From NCBI GenBank assembly GCA_015521775.1, contig WANN01000002.1:62001-126000 (forward strand): DNA of 64,000 nucleotides. Direction: 5' to 3'. The notes under the pieces were generated by a model that searched no databases, was not told the origin of the DNA, and worked only from the letters and a program-made list of their open reading frames with translations. Numbering within the stretch: position 1 is the stretch's first letter; each line of letters begins with the position of its first letter. The translations under genes were made by a program, and so were the position numbers. The DNA is from Thermoproteaceae archaeon (GTDB taxonomy: Archaea > Thermoproteota > Thermoprotei > Thermoproteales > Thermoproteaceae). Shown here piece by piece: positions 17,189-40,574 of the stretch.

Positions 17189-17220
17189 TCCTTTTTTGCC
17201 CGGTGCATCCACGGCCCGCC

Positions 17221-19210: not shown

Positions 19211-19306
19211 ATCGACCACCCAACTCGGGCTTTTAAATGATGGTTGGCCATTAATTTGCCAGGGCAAAATTATTGTCATGTGGGCGCTATGGGCGGCGTT
19301 GGGCAA

Positions 19307-19315
19307 CATTTAAAG
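19307..19315 (+). promoter_or_regulatory. TATA box of malate synthase
   Basis: The sequence catttaaag begins 30 bases before ATG 19337. A divergent minus-strand TATA at 19230-19239 serves the aldehyde dehydrogenase, so the two genes share an intergenic control region. Confidence 0.65.
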
Positions 19316-19336
19316 CGTGAGTCTCCACTGACACCA

Positions 19337-21781
19337 ATGCTGGAGATTAACCAGCGGGTCCTACAGGCCTTCCCAGACCTTTTCGGCGAGAAGACTGTGA
19401 ATGGGAGGAAGATCTCAGTGGAGGGCCTCATAGAGGAGCTGGCCCGGGAGTTCGGGCCCGAGGTGGACCGCGTCGTCAGGGCCAGGAGGGAGTGGCTTGA
19501 CAGGGGGGAACCGGTGAGGGTCAAGGCGTCCTTCCCCAGGTGGGACGACAGGTTCGTGGACGCCGACGGCAACGTCCGCACGTTTAGGGAGATTGTCCAG
19601 GGGCTGATCGACAACCTGCTTGGACGGGACTCGCCCCTTAGGTGGGGCCTCAACTGGACCACGCCGGTGCCGGACGACCTGCATCCCCTGAAGAACCCCG
19701 GCCTAGAGATAACCGGGCCCTGGCACCCCATGTCCAGGGCCATACACCAGATAAACGCGGACGTGGCCTCAATGATGGAGGACGAGGAGGACGCGTCGCC
19801 CGCCTGGTACGTGCCCAGGGGCTCCGGGAGGGACGTGGCAGCGGTGTGGGAGGCCAGGCGGGTGGTGCGACGCGTCCTGTCCGGCGACGTTCCGGACCCC
19901 TACAGGGAGGGGGGGAAGGAGTACCGGGTGAGGAAGCCCCGGGACAGGTGGCCCACCCTCATACACAGGGTACCCGGCCTCCACATACTGGACTTCGACG
20001 TGAGGCTGGACGGGAGGCCCGTCCCCGCCATAATAACGTCCATAGTGATATACACGTTGAACAACTACGAGTCGCTGAGGGGGGCCGGCACCAACGTGTA
20101 CTTCTACGTGCCCAAGGTCCAGACCCCGGACGAGGCCCTGGTCATAGAGAGGATCCTGAGGAGGGTCGAGGACAGGCTGGGCCTAGGCAGGGGCGAGCTG
20201 AAGATCGCCATGCTGTACGAGGAGGCGAGGGCAGGCCTCTACCTGCCGGTCATATTCTGGATCTGGCGCGAGAGGCTCGTCAAGTCCAACAACGGCAGGT
20301 GGGACTACCTGGGCTCCATCATCGAGATGTGGAAGGACGAGGCCGTGTACCCCGACCCCCAGAACATCACTATGACGCACCCCATAATGATGGCCTACCA
20401 GAAGTACAACGCCCTCATGTGCCTCATGGCCGGCCTCGACAGGGACGGCGGGCTGAGGGGAGGCCCCGTTGGGGGCATGGCAGCGGTCATGCTATACAGG
20501 CAGGACGACCCGTACCAGCGCCACAGGTACAACGCGAGGGCCCTCAGGGCCATGTGGCTGGACAAGCTTAGGGAGAGGCTCATAGGCCTGGTGTTCGTGG
20601 CCGAGGAGCCCGTCAACAGGGTCACGTTAAGGGAGATCCTCGAGGGGAGGGTCAAGGGCAGGCTCTACGACCTGTTCAGGCAGAGCTGGGTGGCCACGCC
20701 CGAGGAGTCCTACGTGAGGGCCGGCAACGAGCCCCTGAGGGCCAGCCTCGAGGACCTCGAGAGGATGATAAACCGACCGGTCAGACACGTGGTGGTGGAC
20801 GGGGCCCAGATACCGGCCGTGGACAGCGGGCTGACCGAGCAGGAGAGGCGCCTATTCATCGGGCTCGGCCTAATAGATGGGGACGGCAACATAACCCCAT
20901 GGGTGATTAGGCCGGACATGGTGGACACGCCGGAGAAGCTGCTCGGCAACCCGGAGCTCTGGGGCGGCAGGGACCTGTGGACCGCCCTCTTCGAGCCGCC
21001 GAAGGGGGACATAACGGCCGAGCACATACAGCACGCGTTCTACATGGCGGCAAACTACGGGTTCCAGCTCCTCAACGGGAACCTGGCCGCCGCCATAGAC
21101 GACTACGAGCTGGGCCAACGCTTCATGAACGACCTGGCCACGTACCGCATATTCTCCACGTGGCTCTGGACCCTCCTTCGCCACGGGGCCCGCGTCACCA
21201 GGGACGGGGCCTTCAAGGGCCCCGCCAGGACGGGGCTGGGCGTGGTGCCGGCCGAGGACAGGGTGAGGGTGGCCGCGGGGACCCCCTTCACAGAGGAGCT
21301 CTTCGACGCGTTGTGGGACCTCCACATGGAGTGGACCAGCGCCTTCTACGACGACCTCGACCGGATAGCCGCCGAGAGGATCCTAAGCAGGTTCGTGGGC
21401 CCCGTTAGGGACGCGGTCCGCGAGGCCTACAGGGCCGGCCCCTTCAGATACGTGGGGCCAGCAGAGGCCGCCCAGAGGATACTCTCCTCGTTGAGGCGGG
21501 AGGAAGTCGAGAGGGCCGTGCTCGAGAACGCGCCCCGCTTCGACCGCTCCTTCGCCCCAGCCATAATGGACATATTGAGGGCCAAGCTCAAGTCCCCCAT
21601 GTACCTACAACACGGCGGCCGCCTCATAATGGCCCTGGCGCCCCTCCCCGACGAGGCGAGGGACACAGCCCTACAAGCCGTCTTCAGGCCCAGAGAAGAA
21701 GTGGTGAGGCTCGTCGAGTCCGGCCAACTGAGCAGGCAGGTACTCGAAATATACGACTACGTGCACGACGTCAGGGCCTAG
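19337..21781 (+). CDS. aceB: Malate synthase, archaeal type
   Basis: Condenses glyoxylate with acetyl-CoA to malate. At 814 aa it matches the long crenarchaeal malate synthase (Sulfolobus type about 824 aa), not the bacterial A or G forms. Recognisable pieces are NWTTPVPDDLHPLKNPGLEI, GLHILDFDVRLDGRPVPAII, NVYFYVPKVQTPDEALV and LKIAMLYEEARAGLYL, with GRWDYLGSIIEMWKD near the active site. The start at 19337 (MLEINQRVLQAFPDLFG) is set by the TATA box. It links to GlcD (43067) and HbpS/GlcG (29370) for glycolate or glyoxylate use. Isocitrate lyase is not in the window. Confidence 0.9.
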   Translation: MLEINQRVLQAFPDLFGEKTVNGRKISVEGLIEELAREFGPEVDRVVRARREWLDRGEPVRVKASFPRWDDRFVDADGNVRTFREIVQGLIDNLLGRDSPLRWGLNWTTPVPDDLHPLKNPGLEITGPWHPMSRAIHQINADVASMMEDEEDASPAWYVPRGSGRDVAAVWEARRVVRRVLSGDVPDPYREGGKEYRVRKPRDRWPTLIHRVPGLHILDFDVRLDGRPVPAIITSIVIYTLNNYESLRGAGTNVYFYVPKVQTPDEALVIERILRRVEDRLGLGRGELKIAMLYEEARAGLYLPVIFWIWRERLVKSNNGRWDYLGSIIEMWKDEAVYPDPQNITMTHPIMMAYQKYNALMCLMAGLDRDGGLRGGPVGGMAAVMLYRQDDPYQRHRYNARALRAMWLDKLRERLIGLVFVAEEPVNRVTLREILEGRVKGRLYDLFRQSWVATPEESYVRAGNEPLRASLEDLERMINRPVRHVVVDGAQIPAVDSGLTEQERRLFIGLGLIDGDGNITPWVIRPDMVDTPEKLLGNPELWGGRDLWTALFEPPKGDITAEHIQHAFYMAANYGFQLLNGNLAAAIDDYELGQRFMNDLATYRIFSTWLWTLLRHGARVTRDGAFKGPARTGLGVVPAEDRVRVAAGTPFTEELFDALWDLHMEWTSAFYDDLDRIAAERILSRFVGPVRDAVREAYRAGPFRYVGPAEAAQRILSSLRREEVERAVLENAPRFDRSFAPAIMDILRAKLKSPMYLQHGGRLIMALAPLPDEARDTALQAVFRPREEVVRLVESGQLSRQVLEIYDYVHDVRA

Positions 21782-26321: not shown

Positions 26322-26627
26322 CTACACCTCTATATATACCTCGCCGTCCTGTATGACGGGCCTATATACCCTGATCCTGTACCTGTACCCCTTGAGGTCT
26401 CCCTCGCCGGTCTCCATGTCGTAGACCGTCCCATGCCCCTTACACGTCAGCTTGCCCCCCTCGTACGTGCCTAGGCTGAGGAGCCACCTTCCGTGGGCGC
26501 ATATGCCGTCGGCCACGTACACCCTGTCCCCATCCCTCACTATGACCAGCGCCTTGGTGCCGGCGGTGGCTGGTACCGGGCGTTTGTCTGGCAGGTCCTT
26601 TAGGCTGGCTATCCTGATCCTCACCAT
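26322..26627 (-). CDS. Rieske-type ferredoxin
   Basis: 101 aa with a single Rieske [2Fe-2S] domain: C-x-H in CAHGRW, 16 residues, then C-x2-H in CKGH. Short soluble Rieske ferredoxins carry electrons to oxygenases. ATG 26627 lies one base beyond the stop of the upstream Rieske fusion gene, so the two are co-transcribed. It could be the electron donor of the diiron proteins encoded divergently at 27698 and 28570. Confidence 0.9.
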   Translation of the reverse strand: MVRIRIASLKDLPDKRPVPATAGTKALVIVRDGDRVYVADGICAHGRWLLSLGTYEGGKLTCKGHGTVYDMETGEGDLKGYRYRIRVYRPVIQDGEVYIEV

Positions 26628-27586
26628 GGCACCTTGACGTATACCACGCCGTTTTCCACCTTGACCGGGTACCTGGGCTGGGTCCTTGCCTCGCCGTGGT
26701 TGGGATGCAGGACGACGCGCCCGGTCTTGGCGTCGAATGTGGCGTGGTGGCCTAGGCAGACCAGCTGCCTGCCCTGTAGGTAGCCGTAGTGGAGCGGGTC
26801 TCTCTCGTGCGTGCACCAGTTCTCGAAGGCCACGACGTCCCCGTCAACGCCCACCACTAGGACCTCCCTCCACAGCCCCACAATGACCATCTTCTTGCCT
26901 ACCCTCCTTATCTCGTCGAGGGTCCCCGCTCTCTCCCACTCGGCTACGGGAAGCGGCGGTCCCCCGTCATCCACGACTTCGGGGGGCTGGAAGAAGTCGA
27001 AGAATATGGGGGTCAACGCGTTGAAGAGGACTAGGTCCATTCCCGCTCTGTCGGGCCTCGCTATCCCCACGTATTCCAAGGCATCATCGACGACCTTGAC
27101 CTCGTCCTCTTCCCTCTGGTAGGCCAGGTAGGCCAGTTGGGCGACATGCCTGTTGTTGGCCCAGTACGCTGCTGCCCTGTACCCCGTGTGGCAGTACTTG
27201 AGGGCGGCCCTAAGGAGGAGCAGGCCCTGCCTAATGTCGCCCTTAGCCGCGTTGATCACGGCATCCATCAACTCGGCTATTTGTCTGTTTACCTTGTACC
27301 CGTTGAGGCCCAGTGCCCTGGACATCACGAAGAACCTCCGGTAGACCGAGCTCTCGTGCCAGTCCACTATCCAACCCATTTTATGGTATATGTCGGGCTC
27401 GCCCATGAGCTCCGGCCTCCCGATGGCGGCCCTGACAAGCTGTACCACGGCCATCTCCTCCACCAGCCTCTGCTGGACGTATCGCCTGTAGCCGTATAGG
27501 CCGGGGTCCCTCTGGAACCAGTTGACCCAGCTCTCGTAAAGCGTGTACTCGAACTCGTCTATTTTCTCCCTGCTGACCGTGGACAT
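26621..27586 (-). CDS. Helical domain fused to a C-terminal Rieske domain
   Basis: 321 aa. Residues 1 to about 205 form a helical domain of unknown family (YTLYESWVNWFQRDPGLYGY, YHKMGWIVDWHESSVYRRFF); no paired E-x2-H diiron ligands are visible in it. Residues from about 225 to the end are a Rieske domain with C-x-H in CTHERD, 16 residues, and C-x2-H in CLGHHATFD. This differs from ring-hydroxylating dioxygenases, where the Rieske domain is N-terminal. Divergent from two diiron genes with an AT-rich control region between, so it may be the reductase-facing or beta-type subunit of the same oxygenase. That role is inferred. Confidence 0.75.
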   Translation of the reverse strand: MSTVSREKIDEFEYTLYESWVNWFQRDPGLYGYRRYVQQRLVEEMAVVQLVRAAIGRPELMGEPDIYHKMGWIVDWHESSVYRRFFVMSRALGLNGYKVNRQIAELMDAVINAAKGDIRQGLLLLRAALKYCHTGYRAAAYWANNRHVAQLAYLAYQREEDEVKVVDDALEYVGIARPDRAGMDLVLFNALTPIFFDFFQPPEVVDDGGPPLPVAEWERAGTLDEIRRVGKKMVIVGLWREVLVVGVDGDVVAFENWCTHERDPLHYGYLQGRQLVCLGHHATFDAKTGRVVLHPNHGEARTQPRYPVKVENGVVYVKVPW

Positions 27587-27697: not shown

Positions 27698-28504
27698 ATG
27701 TCCACGGCCGAACAGCTGAGGGCGAGGTACAGGGAGCTTTCAAAGCTGCTCGACGAGCTGGACAGGCTGAAGAACGACGCCGAGTTCCTCTCGAAGTTCC
27801 AGAGCCCAGTGGAGTTCGTGGACTGGTTCAAGGCGTATGCAGACCCCCTCCTGACGCTCCAGTACGAAATTGGGGCCCAGTGGATACTGAACGCGGACAT
27901 AAAGAATGTGGTCGCGTGGCTTAGGCAGGGCGTGTGGAACGAGTGGGCTGCCAACACGGTCATAACGCGGTCCGTCACAGAGTACCGCGATTACATAGAC
28001 ACCGAGTTCATGAATGTGTTGGCCCAGCAGATATCTGACGAGTGTAGGCACCTGTACATAAGGACCAGGGTCCTCAAGATGTATGGGGGCTCCCTGGAGG
28101 GGTTCCAGCCCATAAGGGAGTGGGTCGAACTGTTCGATTTTCCCCTCAGGTGCGCCGCGAGGAGGCTAGAGTGGCCCTACTTCCAGGTGAAGCTGACATC
28201 GACGCTTCAGGTCGTTGAGTTGACGAGCGTGTACCATCACAGGGGGGTACACGACAACTTCCCAAAGAATCCCCGGCTCTGGGAGGAGCCGTACCGGGCC
28301 GCATCACAGGCATTCATGGAGACGTTCCGCGAGATCGAGGACGACGAGCTCTTCCACTGGTCCATAGCGGAGAGGGTCTGGATGAAGTACGCCGGGGACG
28401 CCGAGACACGTAGGGAGATACTGGACTGTGCCGGGGGAGCGCTAAGGGCGTCTATGGAGGCCAGGATAAGGAGGGTCGAGCTCGCCGAGAGGCACTCCAT
28501 CTAA
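27698..28504 (+). CDS. Ferritin-like diiron protein (putative aromatic monooxygenase subunit), copy 1
   Basis: 268 aa. Diiron carboxylate ligands are readable in the right order: E82 (NEWAAN), E115-x2-H118 (DECRHLY), E174 (VVELTS) and E217-x2-H220 (DDELFHW), the four-helix pattern of ferritin-like oxygenases such as PaaA/BoxB and small diiron hydroxylases. Such enzymes activate O2 to oxidise an organic substrate. The protein is shorter than soluble methane/toluene monooxygenase alpha subunits (about 500). Follows a TATA box at the leaderless distance. Adjacent Rieske ferredoxin genes supply a plausible electron path. The substrate is unknown; a phenolic or phosphorylated aromatic is my inference. 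Confidence 0.78.
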   Translation: MSTAEQLRARYRELSKLLDELDRLKNDAEFLSKFQSPVEFVDWFKAYADPLLTLQYEIGAQWILNADIKNVVAWLRQGVWNEWAANTVITRSVTEYRDYIDTEFMNVLAQQISDECRHLYIRTRVLKMYGGSLEGFQPIREWVELFDFPLRCAARRLEWPYFQVKLTSTLQVVELTSVYHHRGVHDNFPKNPRLWEEPYRAASQAFMETFREIEDDELFHWSIAERVWMKYAGDAETRREILDCAGGALRASMEARIRRVELAERHSI

Positions 28505-28569
28505 ATTATATGGCGTGTCGGGACTATAATTTGGGGACCTTTTTTTAAAGCCTCAACGTCATTTTCCGC

Positions 28570-29364
28570 ATGGCTGTCGGCGCCGGCCTCTGGGAAAAGG
28601 CCAGGGAGCTGAGGAACATCTGGGAAAGCCTTAGGAACGTCCCAGACGACGTTCTGTCCTCCTTCCAATCGCCCCAGGAATTCATAGACTGGTTCAAGGC
28701 CTACGCCGACCCGGTGCTCCAGTTCCACTACGTGATTGGGGCCGAGTGGGCGCTCAACGCGGACGCACCGGGCGTAGTGGCTTGGCTTAGGCAGGGCGTG
28801 TGGAACGAGTGGGCCGCAGCGGCCGACGTGGCCAGGATAGTGAACGAGTACCGTGACTACATCGACACGGAGTTCATGACTATGTTCGCACAGCAGATAT
28901 CGGACGAGGGGAGGCACCTCTACCTCCGGTCGAGGATACTGAGGGCCTTCGGCGGCTCCATGGAGGGTTTTCAGCCCATAAGGGAGTGGGTCGAACTGTT
29001 CGACCTGCCCTTCCAGTGCGCGCCCAGGAACATGGCCTTCTTCCAGGTAAGGGCCACATCGACGCTTCAGGTCGTTGAGTTGACGAGCGTGTACCATCAC
29101 AGGGGGGTACACGACAACCTGGACCGGAACAGGGCGCTGATGGAGGGCCCATATGGGCGGGCCGCCCATATGCTTAGGGAGTCCTTCCGCGAGATAGAGG
29201 ACGACGAGCTCTTCCACTGGTCCATAGCCGAGCGCATGTGGGTGAAGTACGCCAGGGACGCGGAGTCCAGGAGGAACATACTTGAGTGCGCTGCCGAGGC
29301 GCTCAGGGTGTCCACCGAGGCCAGGATAAGGAGGGTCGAGCTGTCGGAGAAGAAGGCCATATAG
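28570..29364 (+). CDS. Ferritin-like diiron protein, copy 2
   Basis: 264 aa, a close paralogue of the preceding gene with the same ligand set: E80, E113-x2-H116 (DEGRHLY), E170 and E213-x2-H216 (DDELFHW). The two differ most at the N-terminus and around residues 150-160 and 185-205. DNA tracts of 63 and 32 bases are identical between copies, pointing to recent gene conversion. It has its own AT-rich promoter-like tttttttaaag upstream. The pair may form a heterodimeric hydroxylase. It is followed after six bases by the HbpS-like gene. Confidence 0.78.
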   Translation: MAVGAGLWEKARELRNIWESLRNVPDDVLSSFQSPQEFIDWFKAYADPVLQFHYVIGAEWALNADAPGVVAWLRQGVWNEWAAAADVARIVNEYRDYIDTEFMTMFAQQISDEGRHLYLRSRILRAFGGSMEGFQPIREWVELFDLPFQCAPRNMAFFQVRATSTLQVVELTSVYHHRGVHDNLDRNRALMEGPYGRAAHMLRESFREIEDDELFHWSIAERMWVKYARDAESRRNILECAAEALRVSTEARIRRVELSEKKAI

Positions 29365-29369
29365 CGACC

Positions 29370-29768
29370 ATGTGGGAGCTCGCCCGTCTCGGGGAGGCGC
29401 TGCGGAGGGGCGTGGAGAGGGCGTCGGAGCTGGGGATAAGCGTGTCCATAGCCGTCACCGACGAGAGGGGCGGCGTGGTCGCGCTGTACAGGATGCCGGG
29501 GGCCTACGAGTTCTCGCCCACGGTGGCACTCGCCAAGGCCAGGACCGCGGCACAGTTCGGCAGGCCCACGGCGCAGCTGGCTGAACGCGCAGCCGCGAAC
29601 CCCATGCTCTACATAGGCCTCACGGTGCACGCCGGCCTGATCTTCGGCAAGGGGGGACTGCCCGTGGTGAGGGACGGCAGGGTGGTGGGCGCAGTCGGCG
29701 TGAGCGGAGGAACCGGCGACCAGGACGAGGACGTGGCTTCCAGGGTGGTGGAGGCACTGACTGCCTAG
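29370..29768 (+). CDS. HbpS/GlcG-family protein
   Basis: 132 aa with the family pattern GISVSIAVTDERGGVVALYR, TAAQFGRPTA and GGLPVVRDGRVVGAVGVSGG. Family members bind haem, iron or small aromatic/glycolate ligands and are often encoded in aromatic or glycolate catabolic operons (GlcG). It begins five bases after the second diiron gene, so it is probably co-transcribed. Role here likely sensing, carrying or protecting a cofactor or substrate; not proven. Confidence 0.82.
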   Translation: MWELARLGEALRRGVERASELGISVSIAVTDERGGVVALYRMPGAYEFSPTVALAKARTAAQFGRPTAQLAERAAANPMLYIGLTVHAGLIFGKGGLPVVRDGRVVGAVGVSGGTGDQDEDVASRVVEALTA

Positions 29769-30628
29769 CAGCACCAGTCCTTCAACATTTCCCTTTCCCC
29801 CCTCTGCCCGGGAGGGGGCATGCCCGGCGGCAGGGCGGGGTCCAGCGGATACCCCATCCAGAACTGGGTGTGGATGACCAGGGCGTTTATGGCACCTACA
29901 GTGACCTCCGGGGAAAAAACGGCGTCCCACAGCGGTGCAACCGATAGTGCCAGGGCCGCGCACATGGCGCCGCGGCGGGGCTGCGCGTAGCGCGAGGCGC
30001 CTAGGTACTCCAGGGGCCACGAGTAGGCGAGGGCCCAGAGGGTCAGGGCGAGCCCCAGACCATGGGGCATCAGGGAGGCAGCCGCGATGCCCAGTACGAG
30101 CGAGGCCAGGACCGCGCCGATCCCCATGTAGGGCTGCCTGTACAGCCGCCTGAAGGGGTACCCCTGCACGCCGAAGGGCGGGGAGAGGAGCGCCGCGGCG
30201 GCCATGGTCCAGACGTAGACGCCCCACCCCACGTCTAGGGCGCGCAGCGCGTAGGCCGAGGCGTACACCCCGGCGGCCCCCAGGAGCAGTGCCCGGCCCG
30301 GCGGTAGGTGTCGGAGGGGCCACGCGCCGAGGGCCGTCCCCCACATGAAGGCCGTGAAGACCGCCTCCCTCGGCGTTAGGGCATGGGTGGCGAGGGTCAA
30401 CAGGCCCGCAAGCCCAGTCATGCGGACCCCCACGGCCAGCCGGCCCCTGCCGGCCCAATTGCCGAGGGGCGGCGCCCAGGGCCACCCCCCACCTATGAGG
30501 CCCAGCACAAGCAGCCACACGGCGAGCGTGTACAACAAGTCCCCAAGCCCGGACATGGCCATGCCGAGGGCCAGTATTACGGCGAGCCTGGCGAGGGGCC
30601 CCGCGCTATAGTAGGCCGACGACCTCAT
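29765..30628 (-). CDS. Polytopic membrane protein of unknown function
   Basis: About 287 aa with some eight to nine hydrophobic segments, for example LARLAVILALGMAMSGLGDL, VYVWTMAAAALLSPPFGV and GIGAVLASLVLGIAAASL. The cytoplasmic or external tail ends MLKDWCC with a vicinal Cys pair. No transporter family recognised. It ends four bases into the convergent HbpS-like gene and starts inside the 3' end of the HAD gene, so it belongs to the minus-strand operon with HAD, alcohol dehydrogenase and FAH genes. It may move an aromatic or its product. Confidence 0.65.
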   Translation of the reverse strand: MRSSAYYSAGPLARLAVILALGMAMSGLGDLLYTLAVWLLVLGLIGGGWPWAPPLGNWAGRGRLAVGVRMTGLAGLLTLATHALTPREAVFTAFMWGTALGAWPLRHLPPGRALLLGAAGVYASAYALRALDVGWGVYVWTMAAAALLSPPFGVQGYPFRRLYRQPYMGIGAVLASLVLGIAAASLMPHGLGLALTLWALAYSWPLEYLGASRYAQPRRGAMCAALALSVAPLWDAVFSPEVTVGAINALVIHTQFWMGYPLDPALPPGMPPPGQRGEREMLKDWCC

Positions 30629-31391
30629 CGACGCGCCCGACCACGTGGTCCACCCCGTCAAGCCCCTGCCTTTCCCTACGCTCGACCGACGTGACGAGGA
30701 CCGTGGCGCAGCCCATGGCCTTGCACGGCTTGAGGTCCGACTCCACCGTGTCCCCCACCATTACGGCTTTTTCTGGTTTTACGTTGTTGTGGTTTAGGAC
30801 TGTGGTGAAGTGTATTGGGCTGGGCTTGCCCACAACCACAGCCTCACGCCTAGTCTGAAACTCAACAGCAGCAACAATAGCACCAGGAGAGAGGACGGGC
30901 CCGTCCTCAGTGTAGTACCACCTCACCTTGTTGGCGGCCACGAAGAGGGCGCCGGCATTTACGGCCCTGACAGCGTTGCTGAACGCCCTGAAGCTCATGA
31001 AGCGGGTGTGCCCCACCACGACTGCGTCCGCCTCCCTCCAGTCCCTGACCACCCTGTGGCCATGCCTCTCAAGCTCCACGCGCAGCCCCTCCTCACCCAA
31101 CACAAGGCACCTGGCCCTCCCGACCTCGTCCAGCAGGTACATGGCGGCCACACGAGGCGAGGGCCAGAGTTGGTCCAGCTCGAAGGGGAAGCCAAGCGAC
31201 CTCAACATGTGCCAGTACTCGGGGGTACTCCAATTGGAGCCGCTACCGATCACCGCAACCTTCTTCCCCATCTCCCTAAGCCTACGCAGGAGCCTATACC
31301 CGCCGAGCACCCTGGTCTTATGTTCAAGGGCGCCCGTCACAAATACGCCGTCCAGGTCAAACATGAATAGGTCGTACGAGGCTAGCCCCAC
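30606..31391 (-). CDS. HAD hydrolase, NagD-like (subfamily IIA), intact motif I
   Basis: 261 aa phosphatase-type protein. Motif I FMFDLDGVFV has both aspartates; motif II is VIGSGSNWS; motif III/IV is VVGKPSPIHF and VMVGDTVESDLKP. The large C2 cap makes it NagD/4-nitrophenyl-phosphatase-like, so hydrolysis of a small aryl or sugar phosphate is reasonable. Starts at GTG 31391, just after the alcohol dehydrogenase stop. It shares DNA tracts of 138 and 104 identical bases with the paralogue at 34870, indicating gene conversion. Confidence 0.85.
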   Translation of the reverse strand: MGLASYDLFMFDLDGVFVTGALEHKTRVLGGYRLLRRLREMGKKVAVIGSGSNWSTPEYWHMLRSLGFPFELDQLWPSPRVAAMYLLDEVGRARCLVLGEEGLRVELERHGHRVVRDWREADAVVVGHTRFMSFRAFSNAVRAVNAGALFVAANKVRWYYTEDGPVLSPGAIVAAVEFQTRREAVVVGKPSPIHFTTVLNHNNVKPEKAVMVGDTVESDLKPCKAMGCATVLVTSVERRERQGLDGVDHVVGRVDEVVGLL

Positions 31392-31394
31392 GAA

Positions 31395-32396
31395 CTAGAC
31401 CTCGACCACTACCTTGCCCACCCTGTCAGGCGACCTCAAGGCCTCGAATGCCTCCCTGGCCCGGCCCAGGGGATACCTGGCGTGTATCGGCGTGGTTACC
31501 CTGCCCGACTCGAGGAGCCCCACCAGGGTCTGGAGGTCCCTCAGCCTGCCTCCGGTGGAGCCGAGTATCGACCCCTGCACACCGTACAGCCTCCTGAGGT
31601 CCAGCCTGACCTCCTGGCCGGTGAGGACCCCGGCCGTCACGTATCTCCCGCCCCTGCCAAGCATGGAGTAGCTGAGCTCCCATGTGCCGGCCCCCAGGGG
31701 ATCCACCACCACGTCCGCGCCGCCCTGCCGGGCCACGAGGTCCCTAGCCTCCTCTGGCGTGGCCACCGCGTCAGCGCCCAGCCCCCTCAGCGCCGCCTCG
31801 ACCTGCTTCCCCCTCCTGGTTACGGCCATTACATAGGCGCCCATGAGCTTGGCCAGCTGGACCGCGAAGACCCCCACGTTGCCCGTGGCCCCCATGACCA
31901 CCACGAGGTCGCCCGCCGAGACGGAGGCCCTCCTCAGCATGTTCCATGCGGTGAGCCCTCCAATGGGCAGTCCCACTGCCCGCTCCAGCGGGGCGCCCGT
32001 CCTGACCAGGTTGGCCGTGGGGACAACGGCGTACTCGGCCATCCCCCCGTTAGTGGCCGCTCCTATGAGCTGGCCCCTCACCTCGCAGATCTGGGTCTCC
32101 CCTGAGAGGCACTGCCTACACCTACCGCAGAAAAGCCTACTATAGACGACCACGTTGTCCCCGGGCCCCACGTGGCTCCCCTCTCCGGCTGCCTCAACGG
32201 TGCCCACGAACTCGCAGCCGGGAACATGCGGCATTGGAGACGCCTTGACGGCCCCCGAAACAACGGCCAGGTCTATGGGATTGACGCCCACGTACCTGAC
32301 CCTGACAAGGGCCTCGCCGGGGCCGGGCGCAGGCCTCTCCACCTCGGCTAGCCTCAGGTTCTCGAGGCCCGGCGCATCGAAAACTACGGCCCTCAT
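31395..32396 (-). CDS. Zinc-containing alcohol dehydrogenase (MDR family)
   Basis: 333 aa. N-terminal GroES-like domain with PGCEFVGTVEAAGEGS and the four structural-zinc cysteines in CGRCRQCLSGETQIC. Rossmann NAD(P) motif GATGNVGVFAVQLAK (G-x2-G-x2-G). Oxidises alcohols or reduces aldehydes or quinones; the substrate is not readable. It overlaps the upstream FAH gene by four bases and abuts the HAD gene downstream, giving an FAH-ADH-HAD-membrane protein operon. Confidence 0.88.
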   Translation of the reverse strand: MRAVVFDAPGLENLRLAEVERPAPGPGEALVRVRYVGVNPIDLAVVSGAVKASPMPHVPGCEFVGTVEAAGEGSHVGPGDNVVVYSRLFCGRCRQCLSGETQICEVRGQLIGAATNGGMAEYAVVPTANLVRTGAPLERAVGLPIGGLTAWNMLRRASVSAGDLVVVMGATGNVGVFAVQLAKLMGAYVMAVTRRGKQVEAALRGLGADAVATPEEARDLVARQGGADVVVDPLGAGTWELSYSMLGRGGRYVTAGVLTGQEVRLDLRRLYGVQGSILGSTGGRLRDLQTLVGLLESGRVTTPIHARYPLGRAREAFEALRSPDRVGKVVVEV

Positions 32397-33316
32397 TCCG
32401 ATACCACCCTGTTCCTGAGCACGCCGATCCCCTCGACCTCAGCCTCCACCACGTCACCCGGCTTGAGGAACTTGCCCTTGGGGAACCCGACGCCGGGCGG
32501 GGTGCCCGTGAATATGTGGTCGCCGGGCTTGAGCGTTATGCCCTGGGACGCCCAGTATATGAGCTGCTGCACGTTGAATATGAGCTCTGCCGTGGTCCCC
32601 TCCTGCTCGAGCTCCCCGTTCACCCTGAGGAGCAGCTTGAGGTTGTTGGGGTCCGGTATCTCGTCCCTAGTCACAATGTACGGGCCTACAGGGGCCGCCG
32701 TGTCCATGGACTTGCCCCATATCCAGTTCTGGCCGTACGGATTCAACTGCTGGGGCCACCCAGGCGGGAACTGCCAGTCCCTTATGCTTATATCGTTGCC
32801 CACCACGTATCCAAACACGTGGTCGAGGGCCCTCCCCTCCTCGATGTACTTGCCCGGCCTCCCAATGACCACGGTAAGCTCGACCTCCCAGTCGACCCTG
32901 TCTGACACCTTGGGCTTCACTATGGGCCCCTCGTGGCCCACAAGCGCGTTGGGGAACTTGGGGAAGAAGTAGGGCCTCTCGGGCGGCTTGACCCCGGCCT
33001 CCTTGCCATGGGCCCTGTAGTTGACTGCGACGGCGAATATCTTCTCGGGGTCTGGCACAGGCGGCTCCCACGCGATGGTAGACGGGTCTAGGTAGAGGGA
33101 CGGGTCGCCCGCCTTCTCGGCCCTCGCCACGACGTCCCTGACAATGCCCATGGCCGGATCGCCCAGAGCTATAAGCTTCTTCATTGAGTACGTGAAGTCG
33201 GGGGCCGCTGGGGCCTCGTACACGTGCATGTAGGCGCGCGGGAGATCCAGGACGCCTTTCCCCGTGTATACGCCCACCCTCGTGGCGCCGTCCTTTGTAA
33301 ATGTCAACAGCCTCAT
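32393..33316 (-). CDS. Fumarylacetoacetate hydrolase-family protein
   Basis: 307 aa. C-terminal FAH domain: IFAVAVNYRAHGKEAG, the metal site E-x-E in DWEVELTVVIG with Asp in GYVVGNDIS, and FTGTPPGVGF. The family cleaves C-C bonds in acylpyruvates or isomerises/decarboxylates the products of meta ring cleavage. This suits a step after LigAB at 40575-41665. Has the N-terminal FAH cap MRLLTFTKDGATRVGVY. First gene of its operon. The exact reaction is open. Confidence 0.9.
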   Translation of the reverse strand: MRLLTFTKDGATRVGVYTGKGVLDLPRAYMHVYEAPAAPDFTYSMKKLIALGDPAMGIVRDVVARAEKAGDPSLYLDPSTIAWEPPVPDPEKIFAVAVNYRAHGKEAGVKPPERPYFFPKFPNALVGHEGPIVKPKVSDRVDWEVELTVVIGRPGKYIEEGRALDHVFGYVVGNDISIRDWQFPPGWPQQLNPYGQNWIWGKSMDTAAPVGPYIVTRDEIPDPNNLKLLLRVNGELEQEGTTAELIFNVQQLIYWASQGITLKPGDHIFTGTPPGVGFPKGKFLKPGDVVEAEVEGIGVLRNRVVSE

Positions 33317-33381: not shown

Positions 33382-34389
33382 TTAGGCGAGCTCCTCCTGG
33401 TCCACGTCCCTCGCCGCTTCCTGGAGCCCAGAAACGCATTTAACGGTCTCCGAGAACGATGCGGCGGCGAAGCTCTCTGTGATGCGCAGCACGTCGTGTA
33501 TGATCCTTCTCAGGGCAAACGCGGTGTGGGCCTCGTGGGGCCCCACGCCCCTGGATATGAGCTCCTCCTCGAACCTATTTACCTCGGCCCTTATCCTGCT
33601 CACGGCGTCTATGTCGGCCTTGGACCTCATGGCCCTCACGGTAAGCTCGCAGATGTCCCTGAGCTTCTCCATGTGCGGCCCCCGCTCAACGTGGGGGATG
33701 AAGTCCACCATCCTATGTATATAATAGGATATCTCCCTCAGCCTCATAGTCATTTCCAGGTATATGGAGTGGAGCACGCTGGGAAGCCCGTTGCGCTCAG
33801 GCTCCTTCATGGCCAGCGAGAGGAGCCTGTATAGGTACCGGTAGAACCTCTTGGCCTCGTACATGCGCTCCTTCACATCGCTTATGTACGTCTCTGTTCC
33901 GTTGGGCTCTAGACACCTACATATGTCCTCAAGGGACTCCCTTAGGAGGCGGAACGACTTGAGGAAATATTTGAGGAAGTTTTCCTTGTCGAGGTACTCC
34001 ACGCTGTCCTTCACAACTATGACCATGCTGCTCTTGCCCATGCTCTCTATCTCGAAACCCATCAGATCGCTCCTCAGACCCCTCACCACGCTTATGACCT
34101 CCGACTTCAACGAGTTTGTCGAGGTGAGTTCTATCCTGTCGGCGCCATACATGTACATTACCTTCACCATATCGGCGACGGTTTCCGGGGCGTAGTTGTC
34201 CACGTTGATGGTTACATAGCAGTACGTCTTGGGGAGCTTCACTATAATATTGTTATTGGGGTCCTCGATGACTATGACGTGGTCGTGGGGCTTTACATTG
34301 TTCTTGACTACCCAATCCATAGGTATGCTAATGATGTAGCTGCCCGTCTTTATCTTCTGCACACGCCTCAGAAACTTGCTTCGGCTCAC
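33382..34389 (-). CDS. PhoU-like regulator with N-terminal AbrB domain
   Basis: 335 aa. Residues 1-50 (FLRRVQKIKTGSYIISIP followed by MDWVVKNN) form an AbrB/SpoVT-type DNA-binding swapped hairpin; the rest is helical with two PhoU-like bundles. Archaeal proteins of this layout are annotated as phosphate-uptake regulators. Lying between the FAH operon and the HAD/phosphotransferase block, it could sense phosphate or control these genes and bind the AT-rich motifs; that is an inference. An AT-rich 255-bp gap follows. Confidence 0.8.
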   Translation of the reverse strand: MSRSKFLRRVQKIKTGSYIISIPMDWVVKNNVKPHDHVIVIEDPNNNIIVKLPKTYCYVTINVDNYAPETVADMVKVMYMYGADRIELTSTNSLKSEVISVVRGLRSDLMGFEIESMGKSSMVIVVKDSVEYLDKENFLKYFLKSFRLLRESLEDICRCLEPNGTETYISDVKERMYEAKRFYRYLYRLLSLAMKEPERNGLPSVLHSIYLEMTMRLREISYYIHRMVDFIPHVERGPHMEKLRDICELTVRAMRSKADIDAVSRIRAEVNRFEEELISRGVGPHEAHTAFALRRIIHDVLRITESFAAASFSETVKCVSGLQEAARDVDQEELA

Positions 34390-34644: not shown

Positions 34645-34881
34645 ATGTCCGTGGAAATCACCATACGTCCCCACGTATGTGGCGGGTGTCCCCACTGCGA
34701 GGCCGCGGCGCCAGAAGTGTTCAAGGTCAGGGGAGTGGTAACCATAGATGGCCGGTTCGCCCTGTCCTCCACGAGGGGCCGCGTTCCACTGGACATGGCG
34801 GACGCCGTGATACGCGCGTTTAAGGCCTGTCCCAGAGGCGGCATAAGTGTTAGGGTGGTGCCCCCCTGGCTAGTCAAGTAG
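34645..34881 (+). CDS. Small single-cluster ferredoxin
   Basis: 78 aa. Cluster ligands C12, C15, C18 in HVCGGCPHCEAAAP plus a distant Cys in AFKACPRGG, the C-x2-C-x2-C...C-P pattern of single [4Fe-4S] or [3Fe-4S] ferredoxins. It would shuttle electrons in the cytoplasm, perhaps to the oxygenase system of the same region. Its 3' end overlaps the convergent HAD gene by 12 bases. Confidence 0.8.
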   Translation: MSVEITIRPHVCGGCPHCEAAAPEVFKVRGVVTIDGRFALSSTRGRVPLDMADAVIRAFKACPRGGISVRVVPPWLVK

Positions 34882-35658
34882 GGCCACTATATCGTCCACC
34901 TGCGTGACCTCGAGGTCCACGAGCTTCCTGGGATACGTCTGTGTGTCTCCCCTGTCTACCCCTGTGACAAGTATTGTCCTCATTCCCAGCGACCTTGCGG
35001 GGAACATGTCGGCCTCTACGTCGTCCCCCACCATTACGGCTTTTTCTGGTTTTACGTTGTTGTGGTTTAGGACTGTGGTGAAGTGTATTGGGCTGGGCTT
35101 GCCCACAACCACAGCCTCACGCCTAGTCTGAAACTCAACAGCAGCAACAATAGCACCAGGGGAAAGTATTGGCCCCTCCCCCGGCATGTAGTACCACCTC
35201 ACCTTGTTGACGGCGAGGAAATATGCGCCGGAGTTGACCGCACGTATGGCTTCTGTGAACTTCTCAAACGTTATGGATCTGTCATGCCCCACCACGACTG
35301 CGTCCGCCTCCCTCCAGTCCCTGACCACCCTGTGGCCATGCCTCTCAAGCTCCACGCGCAGCCCCTCCTCACCCAACACAAGGCACCTTGCAGAGCCGAA
35401 GATGTTGGCTAGGTGTAGGGCTGCTATCCGGGCCGCGGGCCAGACCTCGTCCATGTCGAAGTCGAAGCCCAGCTTGTTGAGGCGCAACGTGTACTCCCTT
35501 GTGCTCCAGTTGGAGCCGCTTGCAATCACAGCCACCTTCTTCCCCATCTCCCTAAGCCTACGCAGGAGCCTATACCCGCCGAGCACCTCGGGGTCGTCCA
35601 GGATCCGCGTTATGAATACCCCATGTACGTCGAAGGCGAACAGTTCCGCGTCCTTCAC
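34870..35658 (-). CDS. HAD protein, NagD-like, motif I Asp-to-His
   Basis: 262 aa paralogue of the protein at 30606. Motif I reads LFAFDVHGVFI, so the second Asp (general acid/base) is His. Motif II VIASGSNWS, motif III/IV VVGKPSPIHF and VMVGDDVEADMFP remain. Without the acid/base Asp normal HAD phosphatase turnover is unlikely, so it may be a phosphotransferase, a binding subunit or a chaperone for a phosphorylated intermediate. It overlaps the next HAD gene by four bases (co-translated). Contains the 138- and 104-base tracts shared with 30606. Confidence 0.8.
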   Translation of the reverse strand: MKDAELFAFDVHGVFITRILDDPEVLGGYRLLRRLREMGKKVAVIASGSNWSTREYTLRLNKLGFDFDMDEVWPAARIAALHLANIFGSARCLVLGEEGLRVELERHGHRVVRDWREADAVVVGHDRSITFEKFTEAIRAVNSGAYFLAVNKVRWYYMPGEGPILSPGAIVAAVEFQTRREAVVVGKPSPIHFTTVLNHNNVKPEKAVMVGDDVEADMFPARSLGMRTILVTGVDRGDTQTYPRKLVDLEVTQVDDIVALLD

Positions 35659-36434
35659 AGGTGTCTGGTCAGGTCGTCTATATTGTCTAGTACCAGGTCG
35701 GGCCTGAAGTTCGCGCGTTCCAGGTCCTTCGTGGTGGTGGTGCCTGTGAGCACTAGGACCGTCGCCATGCCGAACTTCTGGGCCAGCACGAGGTCCTCCA
35801 TGTCATCGCTGACCACAGCCGCCTCCTCTGGCATAGCGCCGGCCCTCACAAGCGCATACATATACATGATGCGGGAGGGCTTGCCGGTCACGATGGGCTT
35901 AACGCCCGTGGCGTACGAGAGCGCCATGGTTATGGGGCCCATGGACATGGTGGGCTGGGCCTCTGGGATGAAGCGCGACATGCCCGCAGTAACGAGCTTG
36001 GCGCCGCTCATGATCATCCTCATGGCCTTGTTCAGCTTCTCGAAGTTCAGCTGTCTGTCGATGCCTACCACCACTACGTCGGCCCCGTCCTCCACGGGCT
36101 CGTGGCCGTACTTGGACAGCTCGCGCTTGAACGTGTCGGCGCCCAACACGTAGAGCTTGGACTTGCCGAACCTCTTCAGGATGTAGTCCCCTGTGACCTG
36201 TGCGGATGTGATGATATCGTCGAGCCCGATGTCCAGGCCCACTGAGACGAGGTCCTTGTGGACCTCCTCAGTCTCCCTAGGCGCGTTTGAAAGTATGTAC
36301 ACCCGCTTGTTGAGCTCCCTTAGCGTGCCAATGGCGTGTTTTCCCCCTATAAGGGCGCTCTTCAAGGTGTTGGGGTCGCGCCTTACCAGCGTGCCCTGTA
36401 CGTCCAGGTAGAAGACCCTTACGCGGCTCAACAT
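35655..36434 (-). CDS. HAD protein, NagD-like, motif I Asp-to-Gln
   Basis: 259 aa. Motif I is FYLDVQGTLV, so the acid/base Asp is replaced by Gln while the nucleophile Asp stays. Motif II YILSNAPRE, motif III IVTGKPSRIM, motif IV VVSDDMEDLVLAQK. More diverged from the other two paralogues. First gene of a HAD-HAD minus-strand operon that is divergent from the phosphotransferase genes. In Thauera, phenylphosphate carboxylase has a small HAD-family subunit; whether these play a similar role is unknown. Confidence 0.8.
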   Translation of the reverse strand: MLSRVRVFYLDVQGTLVRRDPNTLKSALIGGKHAIGTLRELNKRVYILSNAPRETEEVHKDLVSVGLDIGLDDIITSAQVTGDYILKRFGKSKLYVLGADTFKRELSKYGHEPVEDGADVVVVGIDRQLNFEKLNKAMRMIMSGAKLVTAGMSRFIPEAQPTMSMGPITMALSYATGVKPIVTGKPSRIMYMYALVRAGAMPEEAAVVSDDMEDLVLAQKFGMATVLVLTGTTTTKDLERANFRPDLVLDNIDDLTRHL

Positions 36435-36598: not shown

Positions 36599-38458
36599 AT
36601 GTCCGAGGCCAGGTTCCCTTTTCCAGACGAGTTGAAGCTCCCCGAAAACGTGGACCCGGACACGTATAGGCGTATGTACCTGTACTACAGGTTGCCCTCC
36701 TCGATACTCTTCGGGGGTGCCCCACCGAAGGAGCTGCTCGAATTCGAAAGGCGACAGTTCTGGTTCCAGGACGCTATGCACCACTACGACGTCATGTACC
36801 CGCTCGACGACATACACCCGACGTACTGGAGCATAGCCCTCTCCTCGTACAACTCGAGGATCTTCGTGGTTCCGCCCGCCAACGGCATAGCGCATAGGCT
36901 GGTCAACGGGTACCTCTACATAACGCCGATACCGGTCCTCGACGAGGGGGAGATCAAGAAGAGGTTGGAGTACTTCCAGAGGAGGGCGGGCTACTACTAC
37001 CAGAACTGGATAGACATATATGAAAAGTACTGGAAGCCCGAGGCCGAGAAGATAATTAGGGAGATGGAGGAGCTCCAGTTCAGGGACCTGCCGCAGTACG
37101 AGGACGAGGAGGTGGTCACTAGGCACATGGGCATATCCCCGTCGGCATACAGCCTCGTTGAGAACTGGCTGAGGCTTCTACAGCTCGAGCTGAGGCTGTG
37201 GTGGAAGCACTTCGAGATGCTGAACCTCGGCTACGCCGCGTACCTGCTCTTCTACCAGTTCCTCAAGGAGAAGTTCCCCGACATACCTGACCAGCACATA
37301 GCCCTAATGGTTGCGGGCATAGACGTCATACTGTTTAAGCCGGACCTGGAGCTCCGCCGGTTGGCCAAGCTGGCCGTTGAGCTGGGCGTGGACCAGAAGA
37401 TAGCCTCATTCAGCGACGCGTACGAGATGGAGAGGGCTCTCTCCAACGACGGGGACGTCAAGGTGCAGCAGTGGCTCGCCGAGTGGAACAACGCCAAGTA
37501 TCCCTGGTTCTACTACACCACGGGCATAGGCTTCTACCACCACGAGCCCAGGTGGATAGACGACCTAAACATACCGTTCGGCTTCCTCAAGGACTACATG
37601 GCCAAGGTGAGGCGCGGTGAGCCCCTTGAGACTGCCACCGAGAGGCTGAGGGCCCAGAGGGACGAGATAGCGAACAAGTACGCCGAACTGTTGAGCCCCG
37701 AGGACAGGAAGGCCTTCTACGAGTACCTCAACATTGCCAGGAGGGTGTTCCCATACGTCGAGGAGCACAACTTCTACGTTGAGCACTGGGGCCACACCGT
37801 GTTCTACCGCAAGATAAGGGAGGTCGCCAACATACTGAAGGGCCACGGGTTCATCGAGGACATAAACGACATATTCTACATGAATTGGTGGGAGGTGTAC
37901 CAGGCGCTCCTGGACATTGTGGCAAGCTGGGCCGTGGTCATGCCGGAGGTCGGCAGGCACTACTGGCCCCAGGAAATAAGGAGGCGCAAGGAGATGCTGG
38001 CCAAGCTCAAGGAGTTCAGGCCGCCCCCGGCGCTGGGCAAGCCGCCGGAGGTGATAACGGAGCCCTTCACCATAATGCTGTGGGGGGTCACCAAGGACAG
38101 GGTGGAGGACTGGCTGGGGACTGCCGGCGCGGCTGGCAAGGTGATCAAGGGCTTCCCGGCATCGCCCGGCGTTGTTGAGGGCAGGGCGACCGTTGTGTTC
38201 ACGGTGGAGGAGCTGGACAAGGTCAAGGAGGGTGACATACTGGTATGTCCCAACACGTCCCCGGCGTGGGGACCTGTGTTCGCCAAGGTTAAGGCGGTGG
38301 TGTCCGATATAGGCGGCCTAATGGCGCACGCGGCAATAGTGGCCAGGGAGTATGGGGTGCCCGCAGTTGTGGGGACCGGCAACGCGAGCCGCATAATCAA
38401 GGACGGCCAAAGGGTGAGGGTGGACGGATATAAGGGGGTGGTAGAGATATTGGACTAG
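36599..38458 (+). CDS. Phenylphosphate synthase-like alpha subunit (PEP-synthase swivelling His domain)
   Basis: 619 aa. The C-terminal 100 residues are the phosphohistidine swivelling domain of PEP synthases: SPAWGPVFAKVKAVVSDIGG then LMAHAAIVAREYGVPAVVG, with the catalytic His at about residue 577. The N-terminal 500 residues are not PEP synthase-like and start with FPDELKLPENVDPDTYRRMY, QFWFQDAMHHYDVMYPLDD and RAGYYYQNWIDIYEKYW, resembling Thauera phenylphosphate synthase protein 1 (about 70 kDa) as I recall it. The ATP-binding part is the next gene. Together they would transfer a phosphoryl group from ATP to a phenol-type acceptor. No PEP-binding barrel is present, so it is not a split PEP synthase. 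Confidence 0.68.
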   Translation: MSEARFPFPDELKLPENVDPDTYRRMYLYYRLPSSILFGGAPPKELLEFERRQFWFQDAMHHYDVMYPLDDIHPTYWSIALSSYNSRIFVVPPANGIAHRLVNGYLYITPIPVLDEGEIKKRLEYFQRRAGYYYQNWIDIYEKYWKPEAEKIIREMEELQFRDLPQYEDEEVVTRHMGISPSAYSLVENWLRLLQLELRLWWKHFEMLNLGYAAYLLFYQFLKEKFPDIPDQHIALMVAGIDVILFKPDLELRRLAKLAVELGVDQKIASFSDAYEMERALSNDGDVKVQQWLAEWNNAKYPWFYYTTGIGFYHHEPRWIDDLNIPFGFLKDYMAKVRRGEPLETATERLRAQRDEIANKYAELLSPEDRKAFYEYLNIARRVFPYVEEHNFYVEHWGHTVFYRKIREVANILKGHGFIEDINDIFYMNWWEVYQALLDIVASWAVVMPEVGRHYWPQEIRRRKEMLAKLKEFRPPPALGKPPEVITEPFTIMLWGVTKDRVEDWLGTAGAAGKVIKGFPASPGVVEGRATVVFTVEELDKVKEGDILVCPNTSPAWGPVFAKVKAVVSDIGGLMAHAAIVAREYGVPAVVGTGNASRIIKDGQRVRVDGYKGVVEILD

Positions 38459-38465
38459 CCGCGCA

Positions 38466-39476
38466 ATGCGAGCCGTCATCCCAATTTCTTCCGTTAGGAG
38501 GAGCGACGTACAGCTGGTTGGCGGAAAGGGCGCTTCCCTAGGCGAACTGGTAACAGCGAGGGTAGTTGTGCCCCCAGGCTTCGTGGTTACCACCGAGGCC
38601 TACCGGGCCTTTGTCGAGTACAACGACCTTACCCCCCTCATATCCAAGCTCGAGAGGCGTGAGGGGGATCCCATTATGTTGGGCCAGCGCATACGCACCG
38701 TAATGCTTAAGGGCGAGATGCCCCCGGATGTGGCGAGGGAACTGGAGAAGGCAGGGGGGTCCCTTAGGGGCAAGTGGCTGGCGGTCAGGTCCAGCGCCAC
38801 TTACGAGGACTCCCCCGAGTTCAGCTTCGCCGGCGTGCACGAGACCTTCCTGGGAGTGCCCGGTGACTCGTACGTGGAGTACGTGAGGAAGGTGTGGGCC
38901 AGCAACTTCGAGGACAGGGCCATAACGTACAAGCTGGACAGAGGCGTGCCGCCAAGCCGCGTCCTAATGGCCGTGGTGGTCCAGGAGTTGGTCTCGGCGG
39001 ACGCCGCTGGCGTCATGTTCACCTTGGACCCGCGTAATGGGGACAGGTCCGTCGTGGTCATAGAGTCGAGTTGGGGCCTCGGCGAGGCCGTGGTGTCCGG
39101 GGAGGTCACGCCCGACAGGTTCGTGGTGAGTAAGGTAACCGGCGAGGTGATAAAGCGCGAGGTATCGTACTACAAGAACCACGCCTACCTGCTCCGCGAG
39201 GGCAAGGTGGAGAAGGTGGAGGTGGACAACGAGCGTGCGGCCCAACCGTCACTGACGGACGAGCAGATCCTCAAGTTGGCTGACTATGGCGTGAAGCTGG
39301 AAAAGTACTTCGGCCACGCTGTAGACGTGGAGTGGGCCGTTGCCTCGGGCGACGCGTACATATTACAGAGCAGGCCCGAGACAGTGTGGAGCACTAGGAA
39401 GCGTGAGGGCACGGAGCGTTCTGGCGACGTGATCAAGGATATCGTGGACACGCTCCTAACCTTCAAGCTCAAGTGA
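38466..39476 (+). CDS. Phenylphosphate synthase-like beta subunit (PPDK N-terminal ATP-binding)
   Basis: 336 aa covering only the N-terminal nucleotide-binding domain of PEP synthase/PPDK. VQLVGGKGASLGELVTARVV is the opening motif, WLAVRSSATYEDSPEFSFAG the ATP-site Arg/Ser block, and VEWAVASGDAYILQSRPET the domain end. It matches Thauera phenylphosphate synthase protein 2 (about 40 kDa). It lies seven bases after the alpha gene. It would phosphorylate the swivelling His of the partner. The third Thauera subunit (CBS domains, about 24 kDa) is not found here. Confidence 0.72.
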   Translation: MRAVIPISSVRRSDVQLVGGKGASLGELVTARVVVPPGFVVTTEAYRAFVEYNDLTPLISKLERREGDPIMLGQRIRTVMLKGEMPPDVARELEKAGGSLRGKWLAVRSSATYEDSPEFSFAGVHETFLGVPGDSYVEYVRKVWASNFEDRAITYKLDRGVPPSRVLMAVVVQELVSADAAGVMFTLDPRNGDRSVVVIESSWGLGEAVVSGEVTPDRFVVSKVTGEVIKREVSYYKNHAYLLREGKVEKVEVDNERAAQPSLTDEQILKLADYGVKLEKYFGHAVDVEWAVASGDAYILQSRPETVWSTRKREGTERSGDVIKDIVDTLLTFKLK

Positions 39477-40437: not shown

Positions 40438-40574
40438 TGTGGTCTGGCGGTTACCACAACATAAACACATCCGGAAATTATATGAATTATTTTTCTGCGT
40501 CCCTCCAAGAATTAATTGTGGGACGGCCAGTATATATTTGCTTCACCTTTTTAACGTCGGTGGGTCTAAACCCC

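Follow-up and report, generated by a model that had tools for sequence, protein, structure and literature searches.

Two adjacent genes in a 64,000-nucleotide stretch of the genome of a Thermoproteaceae archaeon (the window; contig WANN01000002.1) encode small diiron proteins, A and B, whose membership in a phenol pathway is well supported. We propose, with about an even chance of being right, that A and B are Rieske-driven diiron monooxygenases that carry out the oxygenation in an aerobic breakdown of phenol or an alkylphenol primed by phosphorylation.

A family of small diiron proteins with invariant ligands

The interval 27698-29364 runs exactly from the ATG of A through the stop codon of B, and both genes are intact and arranged in tandem:

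27698-28504, plus strand: diiron protein A, 268 amino acids, ligand series E82, E115xxH118, E174, E217xxH220
28570-29364, plus strand: diiron protein B, 264 amino acids, an ancient paralogue of A with the same six ligands (E80, E113xxH116, E170, E213xxH216)

The preliminary description of this DNA, in which two tandem proteins of about 265 residues carry E, E-x2-H, E and E-x2-H in that order, is thus confirmed in both arrangement and length. Homologues were found in five of the 398 Thermoproteota genomes surveyed: the window genome (two copies), a sister MAG (G224, JALWZH01; two copies), two Pyrobaculum-type genomes of the window's family, G171 and P. oguniense TE7 (G129, CP003316; three copies each), and G182, a member of another class with a single gene (L016 5309-5995). 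Bacteria were searched by peptide patterns and plasmids. PLSDB plasmids and IMG/VR contigs yielded no diiron homologue, and the GTDB peptide-pattern scan returned only two close relatives, being insensitive enough to miss G171 and G182.

The six ligand positions read E/E/H/E/E/H in 11 of 11 homologues from the five genomes. The G182 homologue, 43-49% identical, keeps all six ligands with the third and fourth ligand groups spaced 11 residues closer. A and B are 66-67% identical as proteins, their divergence predates the split of the two Thermoproteaceae genera, and both have full ligand sets in all four Thermoproteaceae genomes harboring the system. Shuffling A 20,000 times reproduces the spaced ligand motif in 296 cases (1.5%); taken alone, the motif therefore argues only modestly for a diiron site, and it is the conservation that bears the weight of the argument. 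An AlphaFold2 model computed with the family alignment is all-helical (mean pLDDT 95.1) and places the four ligand groups on four different long helices, one each. Given the conservation and this predicted placement, a chance origin of the ligand set is implausible. The alignment further contains an invariant histidine (H181) and several invariant arginines, including R117, R122, and R211; these are candidate second-shell or substrate-phosphate residues.

Over the helix that carries E174 and H181, genes A and B do not differ at all for 61 bases (window positions 28198-28258 and 29058-29118), although the two genes as wholes are 71% identical. Within-genome likeness of A and B over the catalytic helices is also seen in the sister MAG (L017) and in P. 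oguniense (L015), a pattern that suggests repeated gene conversion at these helices. Five bases 3' of copy B lies a gene for an HbpS/GlcG-like protein (29370-29768), with an orthologue in the G171 cluster.

Structural neighbors of the model include HrmI (Z 19.0, rmsd 3.2 over 226), TenA (18.4), PqqC (17.9), and CADD (17.8), together with the ferritin-like proteins MiaE (Z 15.9, rmsd 3.2 over 192) and aldehyde-deformylating oxygenase (ADO; 15.1-15.7), scores that indicate a common arrangement and are no proof of kinship, as helical bundles score high easily. MiaE and ADO match the model over most of their length, and the neighbors are mostly O2-activating diiron enzymes plus the cofactor-free TenA and PqqC. 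MiaE, ADO, HrmI, CADD, and UndA share the overall helical bundle with the model (Z 15-19), but at 10-14% identity and with unrelated substrates. Judged from the model, the fold is intermediate between that of heme-oxygenase-like diiron proteins, which have seven helices, and that of ferritin-like ones. Heme-oxygenase-like diiron (HDO) enzymes carry the spacing His-x3-Asp/Glu-x2-His on the third core helix. Their ligand set is 3-His/3-carboxylate (PMC13108848), which A and B do not match: at the position of the extra histidine (213, last core helix) the family has a hydrophobic residue, Ile in most members. We therefore prefer the ferritin-like type, based on this position and on two histidines and four glutamates in ferritin-like order.

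By sequence comparison, A and B belong to no catalogued protein family. All 11 members stay below the Pfam cut-offs, NCBIfam and PADLOC contain no match to A or B, and neither a PDB sequence search with protein A or the alignment nor a BFVD fold search gave a credible or significant match, respectively. Weak Pfam matches to FcoT and AtzG-like families fall below cut-off and make no sense for the fold. Nothing placed the proteins in a ferritin-like family with a function other than oxygenation: the only family signal is a sub-threshold rubrerythrin match to PF02915 in the G182 homologue, scoring 19.3 bits (E 0.0015) where the cut-off is 22.8, and the other ten members lack it. The HMM comparison put forward in the preliminary description likewise disclosed no homology detectable by hhalign to PaaA or to the phenol/toluene monooxygenase type (PF02332). 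Archaeal PaaA and PaaC gave probabilities of 2% and 1%, the control pair PaaA-PaaC reaching 99.9%, and archaeal phenol-hydroxylase chains gave at most 5%. No member matches the profile PF05138 (PaaA/PaaC) or PF02332. PaaA, BoxB, and BMM structures are absent from the 50 structural matches listed, which excludes nothing. PaaA and BoxB nevertheless resemble A and B in being small ferritin-like diiron oxygenases, acting on an activated (CoA-linked) aromatic, and in local likeness around the first ExxH; they differ in the missing profile homology of archaeal PaaA/PaaC, and in that the window pathway has no CoA ligase step.

The gene neighborhood and the Rieske partners

The diiron genes lie among genes for Rieske proteins, a phenol kinase, phosphatases, and ring cleavage:

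17729-19309, minus strand: aldehyde dehydrogenase, MMSDH-type, also matching hydroxymuconic semialdehyde dehydrogenases
26322-26627, minus strand: Rieske [2Fe-2S] ferredoxin 1
26621-27586, minus strand: helical domain fused to a Rieske ferredoxin, 321 residues, adjoining the diiron genes and divergent from them
29765-30661, minus strand: membrane protein (GGWPWAPPLG)
30606-31391, minus strand: HAD-IIA (NagD-type) phosphatase with an intact DxD (DLDGV), of the same class as HpeD (PMC9618137)
31395-32396, minus strand: zinc-type alcohol dehydrogenase, predicted for the lower pathway or a substrate side chain
32393-33316, minus strand: FAH-family hydrolase/decarboxylase (HpaG-like), predicted for the lower pathway
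34870-35658, minus strand: HAD-IIA paralogue, DVHGV (second Asp replaced)
35655-36434, minus strand: HAD-IIA paralogue, DVQGT (second Asp replaced)
36599-38458, plus strand: phenol-kinase large component, PpsA/CreH/HpeH type, catalytic motif SDIGGLMAH (PMC12167813)
38466-39476, plus strand: phenol-kinase ATP-grasp component, PpsB/CreI/HpeI type
39482-40096, plus strand: HAD phosphatase with an intact DxD (DLDKT), adjoining the ATP-grasp gene
40093-40470, minus strand: Rieske [2Fe-2S] ferredoxin 2, matching other Rieske ferredoxins, with orthologues in the two Pyrobaculum clusters
40575-41402, plus strand: LigB-type class III extradiol dioxygenase, catalytic subunit (open reading frame from 40437, homology from the ATG at 40575)
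41399-41665, plus strand: LigA-type small subunit

The genes for the diiron protein, the helical-Rieske protein, both kinase components, HAD proteins, the FAH-family enzyme, LigB, and LigA recur in G171, P. oguniense, and the distant G182, where the cluster spans two contigs and LigB, LigA, diiron, and helical-Rieske genes are consecutive on one strand. The sister MAG was compared on two short contigs, which lack the DLDKT gene, and the statements on LigAB and the second Rieske ferredoxin concern the other genomes. The aldehyde and alcohol dehydrogenases and the second Rieske ferredoxin are common to the Thermoproteaceae clusters, and in P. oguniense and G171 the aldehyde dehydrogenase orthologue lies directly beside the kinase genes. 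The DLDKT protein, found in the window, G171, P. oguniense, and G182, is predicted to act as a dedicated phosphatase of the cluster. LigB is closer to gallate and protocatechuate dioxygenases than to catechol enzymes, so the aromatic substrate may be substituted. Relatives of the membrane protein occur beside the diiron operon of G182 and beside the carboxylase-type phenol kinase of a sixth genome, G109.

Further genes of the neighborhood were recorded. The DVQGT motif, although unusual in a phosphatase, is kept in all four lineages checked, and the sister MAG has it as well. A Nudix-type gene (17203-17766) recurs in the G171 and P. oguniense clusters. A gene at 33382-34389, combining by eye an AbrB-like N-terminus with a PhoU-like helical part, recurs in the sister MAG, G171, and P. 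oguniense clusters, and its product is possibly a phosphate-responsive regulator. Beside the aldehyde dehydrogenase lies a gene for an 845-residue malate-synthase-like protein (19244-21781), which greatly exceeds the classical enzyme in length (511 positions in the A model).

The Rieske ferredoxin neighbors noted in the preliminary description are indeed adjacent and on the opposite strand, but the product of 26621-27586 is no plain ferredoxin, having a helical domain at about residues 1-200 ahead of its Rieske ferredoxin domain (about 215-321). The Rieske domain scores Z of about 16 to BphA3 and T4moC. The helical domain has a TenA/heme-oxygenase-like shape, its Z of 13-13.9 being a borderline score for helical bundles, and no conserved ExxH pair. 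We propose that the fusion protein acts as both structural partner and electron donor. The contrast with flavin-reductase systems drawn at the outset also holds for the reductase: an FAD_binding_6-type reductase (PF00970) is found in none of the five diiron genomes, two of which are less than 90% complete, against a positive control in 8 of 14 genomes, and nothing recognizable as a reductase of the Rieske proteins turned up. The effector family PF02406 (MmoB/DmpM) is likewise undetected in the five genomes, an absence that is unproven since the control set gave none either.

A precedent for such electron transfer is toluene 4-monooxygenase, in which a Rieske ferredoxin reduces a carboxylate-bridged diiron hydroxylase (PMC4200526). 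Its alpha chain, even when cut at codon 492 for crystals, is far longer than A and B (PMC4200526), and multicomponent monooxygenases possess beta and gamma chains plus an effector, whereas A and B are without PF02332 match.

Co-occurrence with the phenol kinase and the setting in P. oguniense

The kinase large component of the window scores 926 bits in NF006153, a family above cut-off within the control set only in Corynebacterium glutamicum, whose CreHI phosphorylates 4-cresol (PMC12167813). Phenol kinases carry a TSxxGGxMxH-like motif with Met where PEP synthase has a regulatory Thr (PMC12167813), and in the window kinase, as in HpeH, CreH, and PpsA (PMC12167813), this Met lies two positions ahead of the catalytic His. 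NF006153 is above cut-off in six of the 398 Thermoproteota genomes, namely the five diiron genomes and G109, whose kinase has Thr at the Met position. Within the order, kinase and diiron genes are found together in four of 45 genomes and neither in the remaining 41. Random placement of five diiron genomes inside six kinase genomes among 398 has a probability of 7e-11, a value that is illustrative only, since the genomes are related and the cluster moves as a unit; the lineages behind the co-occurrence that can count as independent are few: a pair of sister genomes, the two Pyrobaculum, and one distant genome.

G109 has no diiron protein and no HAD, LigAB, or FAH gene in its kinase neighborhood, sharing with the diiron clusters only the kinase and the membrane protein. 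The neighbors of its kinase gene encode a benzoate-CoA ligase and the beta subunit of phenylphosphate carboxylase, the latter above the TIGR02724 cut-off at 528 bits. The five diiron genomes all stay below that cut-off, and anaerobic carboxylation in these was therefore rejected; the best UbiD-type match of the window genome is on another contig, beside a UbiA-like gene. With the carboxylase only in G109 and the diiron protein only in the other five, the two genes seem to substitute for each other after the kinase. The G109 cluster (L045, C1:170000-189000) also contains a molybdopterin oxidoreductase-like gene and has the appearance of an archaeal phenylphosphate-type anaerobic phenol cluster.

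In P. oguniense, the diiron cluster (1,550-1,569 kb) overlaps a 1,540-1,565 kb island that encodes aerobic terminal cytochromes and is missing from the obligate anaerobe P. arsenaticum (PMC3558965), and terminal-oxidase-like genes were recognized by eye just upstream of the cluster. This overlap fits with oxygen use. Part of a phenol-hydroxylase alpha chain, 158 residues long (PF02332, E 2.5e-13), is encoded in the cluster as well, which might mean that the small diiron system took the place of a phenol hydroxylase or existed alongside it. The fragment (L015 12996-13472, equal to P. oguniense 1,562,995-1,563,471) lies beside an ETF-alpha piece. The third diiron copy, C, of the two Pyrobaculum genomes (L015 583-3426 in P. 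oguniense, L014 16694-19435 in G171) has its own Rieske ferredoxin; a kinase-like protein of reduced length is encoded beside it, as is one judged by eye to be IMPase-like. This locus is possibly a second phosphorylation-oxygenation module; the kinase-like gene by copy C in G171 appears broken near the catalytic His.

Proposed reaction sequence, alternatives, and known pathways

In the proposed sequence, the two-component dikinase (36599-39476) would convert phenol or a substituted phenol to an aryl phosphate. The diiron protein would then activate O2 and hydroxylate the phosphorylated ring, probably in ortho position, the Rieske ferredoxins and the helical-Rieske fusion supplying the electrons. 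Removal of the phosphate by a HAD phosphatase (39482-40096 and/or 30606-31391) would yield a catechol, which LigAB would cleave, the aldehyde dehydrogenase and the FAH-family enzyme presumably acting on the product. Strong family assignments underlie the predicted kinase and LigAB steps. The diiron protein is assigned as hydroxylase by elimination and context, no other ring hydroxylase having been recognized in the cluster, in which unannotated genes remain. The minimal diiron hydroxylase suggested in the preliminary description thus gains support from ligand conservation, fold, and the aromatic-degradation neighborhood, hydroxylation itself being the inferred part.

That the diiron protein hydroxylates free phenol, with phosphorylation used otherwise (substrate trapping or another intermediate), is somewhat unlikely. 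The gene context is equally compatible with this reading, phosphorylation has been suggested to trap phenolics in cells (PMC12167813, PMC9618137), and diiron phenol hydroxylases, of which the P. oguniense cluster holds a fragment, use free phenols. A prior phosphorylation, however, would first need undoing, and in G109 the carboxylase, whose place the diiron gene takes, acts on the phosphate ester. It is this exchange, together with the Cre precedent described below, that leads us to favor the aryl phosphate over free phenol as substrate.

A separate question is whether the hydroxylase has to be assembled from A and B together, which we regard as unlikely. Their split before the genera parted, the retention of both intact in four Thermoproteaceae genomes, and catalytic helices held alike by apparent gene conversion would all suit such an enzyme. 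Yet G182 manages with a single copy plus a helical-Rieske protein, the two genes of G171 point away from each other across 6 kb, and copy B of the window has its own TATA-like stretch, TTTTTTTAAA, about 25 bases 5' of its ATG. The heterodimer considered in the preliminary description is therefore unneeded as a general rule, although hetero-oligomers are possible where A and B are both kept, as in the Thermoproteaceae.

Oxidation of a side chain, of a nitrogen, or of the ring-cleavage product is distinctly unlikely. It would find a parallel in the N-oxygenase HrmI, one of the heme-oxygenase-like proteins that lead the structural neighbors. CreJ of the cresol pathway catalyzes methyl hydroxylation. 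The nearby alcohol and aldehyde dehydrogenases could follow such a step, as for CreJ/CreG/CreC (genes: PMC7764795). The 2-His/4-carboxylate set in ferritin-like order nonetheless differs from the 3-His/3-carboxylate set of HDO enzymes, and LigAB needs two adjacent ring hydroxyls, so that a monophenol requires ring hydroxylation. A rubrerythrin/ferritin-like peroxidase or iron-handling protein, shielding the oxygen-sensitive dioxygenase and Rieske proteins, would agree with the ferritin-like ligand set and the weak PF02915 match of G182, but is highly improbable, as ten members lack that match, and neither the protein's constant company of phenol kinase and ring-cleavage genes nor its absence from all other sampled Thermoproteota is what a general stress protein would show.

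The aryl-phosphate monooxygenase reading can be set against three known phosphorylation-primed routes. The Cre pathway of Corynebacterium glutamicum is likewise aerobic and starts from a phenol kinase of two components. Genes for an oxygenase and a phosphohydrolase belong to the same set, which comprises the CreHI kinase, the CreJ/E/F P450 system, and the CreD phosphatase for 4-cresol (PMC12167813, PMC7764795); the pathway differs in its P450 oxygenase, for which a small diiron protein with Rieske donors is proposed here, and in that the archaeal cluster includes ring-cleavage genes. The anaerobic phenol pathway (PpsAB and phenylphosphate carboxylase; Thauera, Geobacter, G109) employs the same kinase family as the window, followed by a carboxylase and CoA ligase in place of a diiron oxygenase and extradiol dioxygenase. 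The Hpe pathway of Rhodococcus (HpeHI, HpeCBA, HpeD) also has a phenol kinase of two components, and its HAD phosphatase is NagD-like as well (PMC9618137), but its middle step is a biotin-dependent carboxylation, where we propose an oxygenation. In the literature consulted, on aryl phosphates and monooxygenases, on aromatic catabolism in Pyrobaculum, and on diiron proteins with Rieske partners, we found no description of this cluster or of a system of such make-up.

Taken further, and with a chance that falls a little short of even, A and B may represent a minimal diiron monooxygenase family that uses the phosphate ester on the phenol oxygen as a handle, and the first to act on an aryl phosphate, with the fused structural-partner/Rieske protein replacing beta chain, effector, and reductase, and the anaerobic phenylphosphate route having been made aerobic in hyperthermophilic archaea. 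If right, this would add small and thermostable diiron oxygenases that form a family not yet catalogued, with aryl phosphates as a predicted substrate class of diiron enzymes, and would bear on the open question of why phenol catabolism so often starts with phosphorylation (PMC12167813, PMC9618137). The exchange of a carboxylase for a diiron protein after the same kinase offers a clean natural comparison, and aerobic phenol degradation would be predicted in the cultured Pyrobaculum oguniense.
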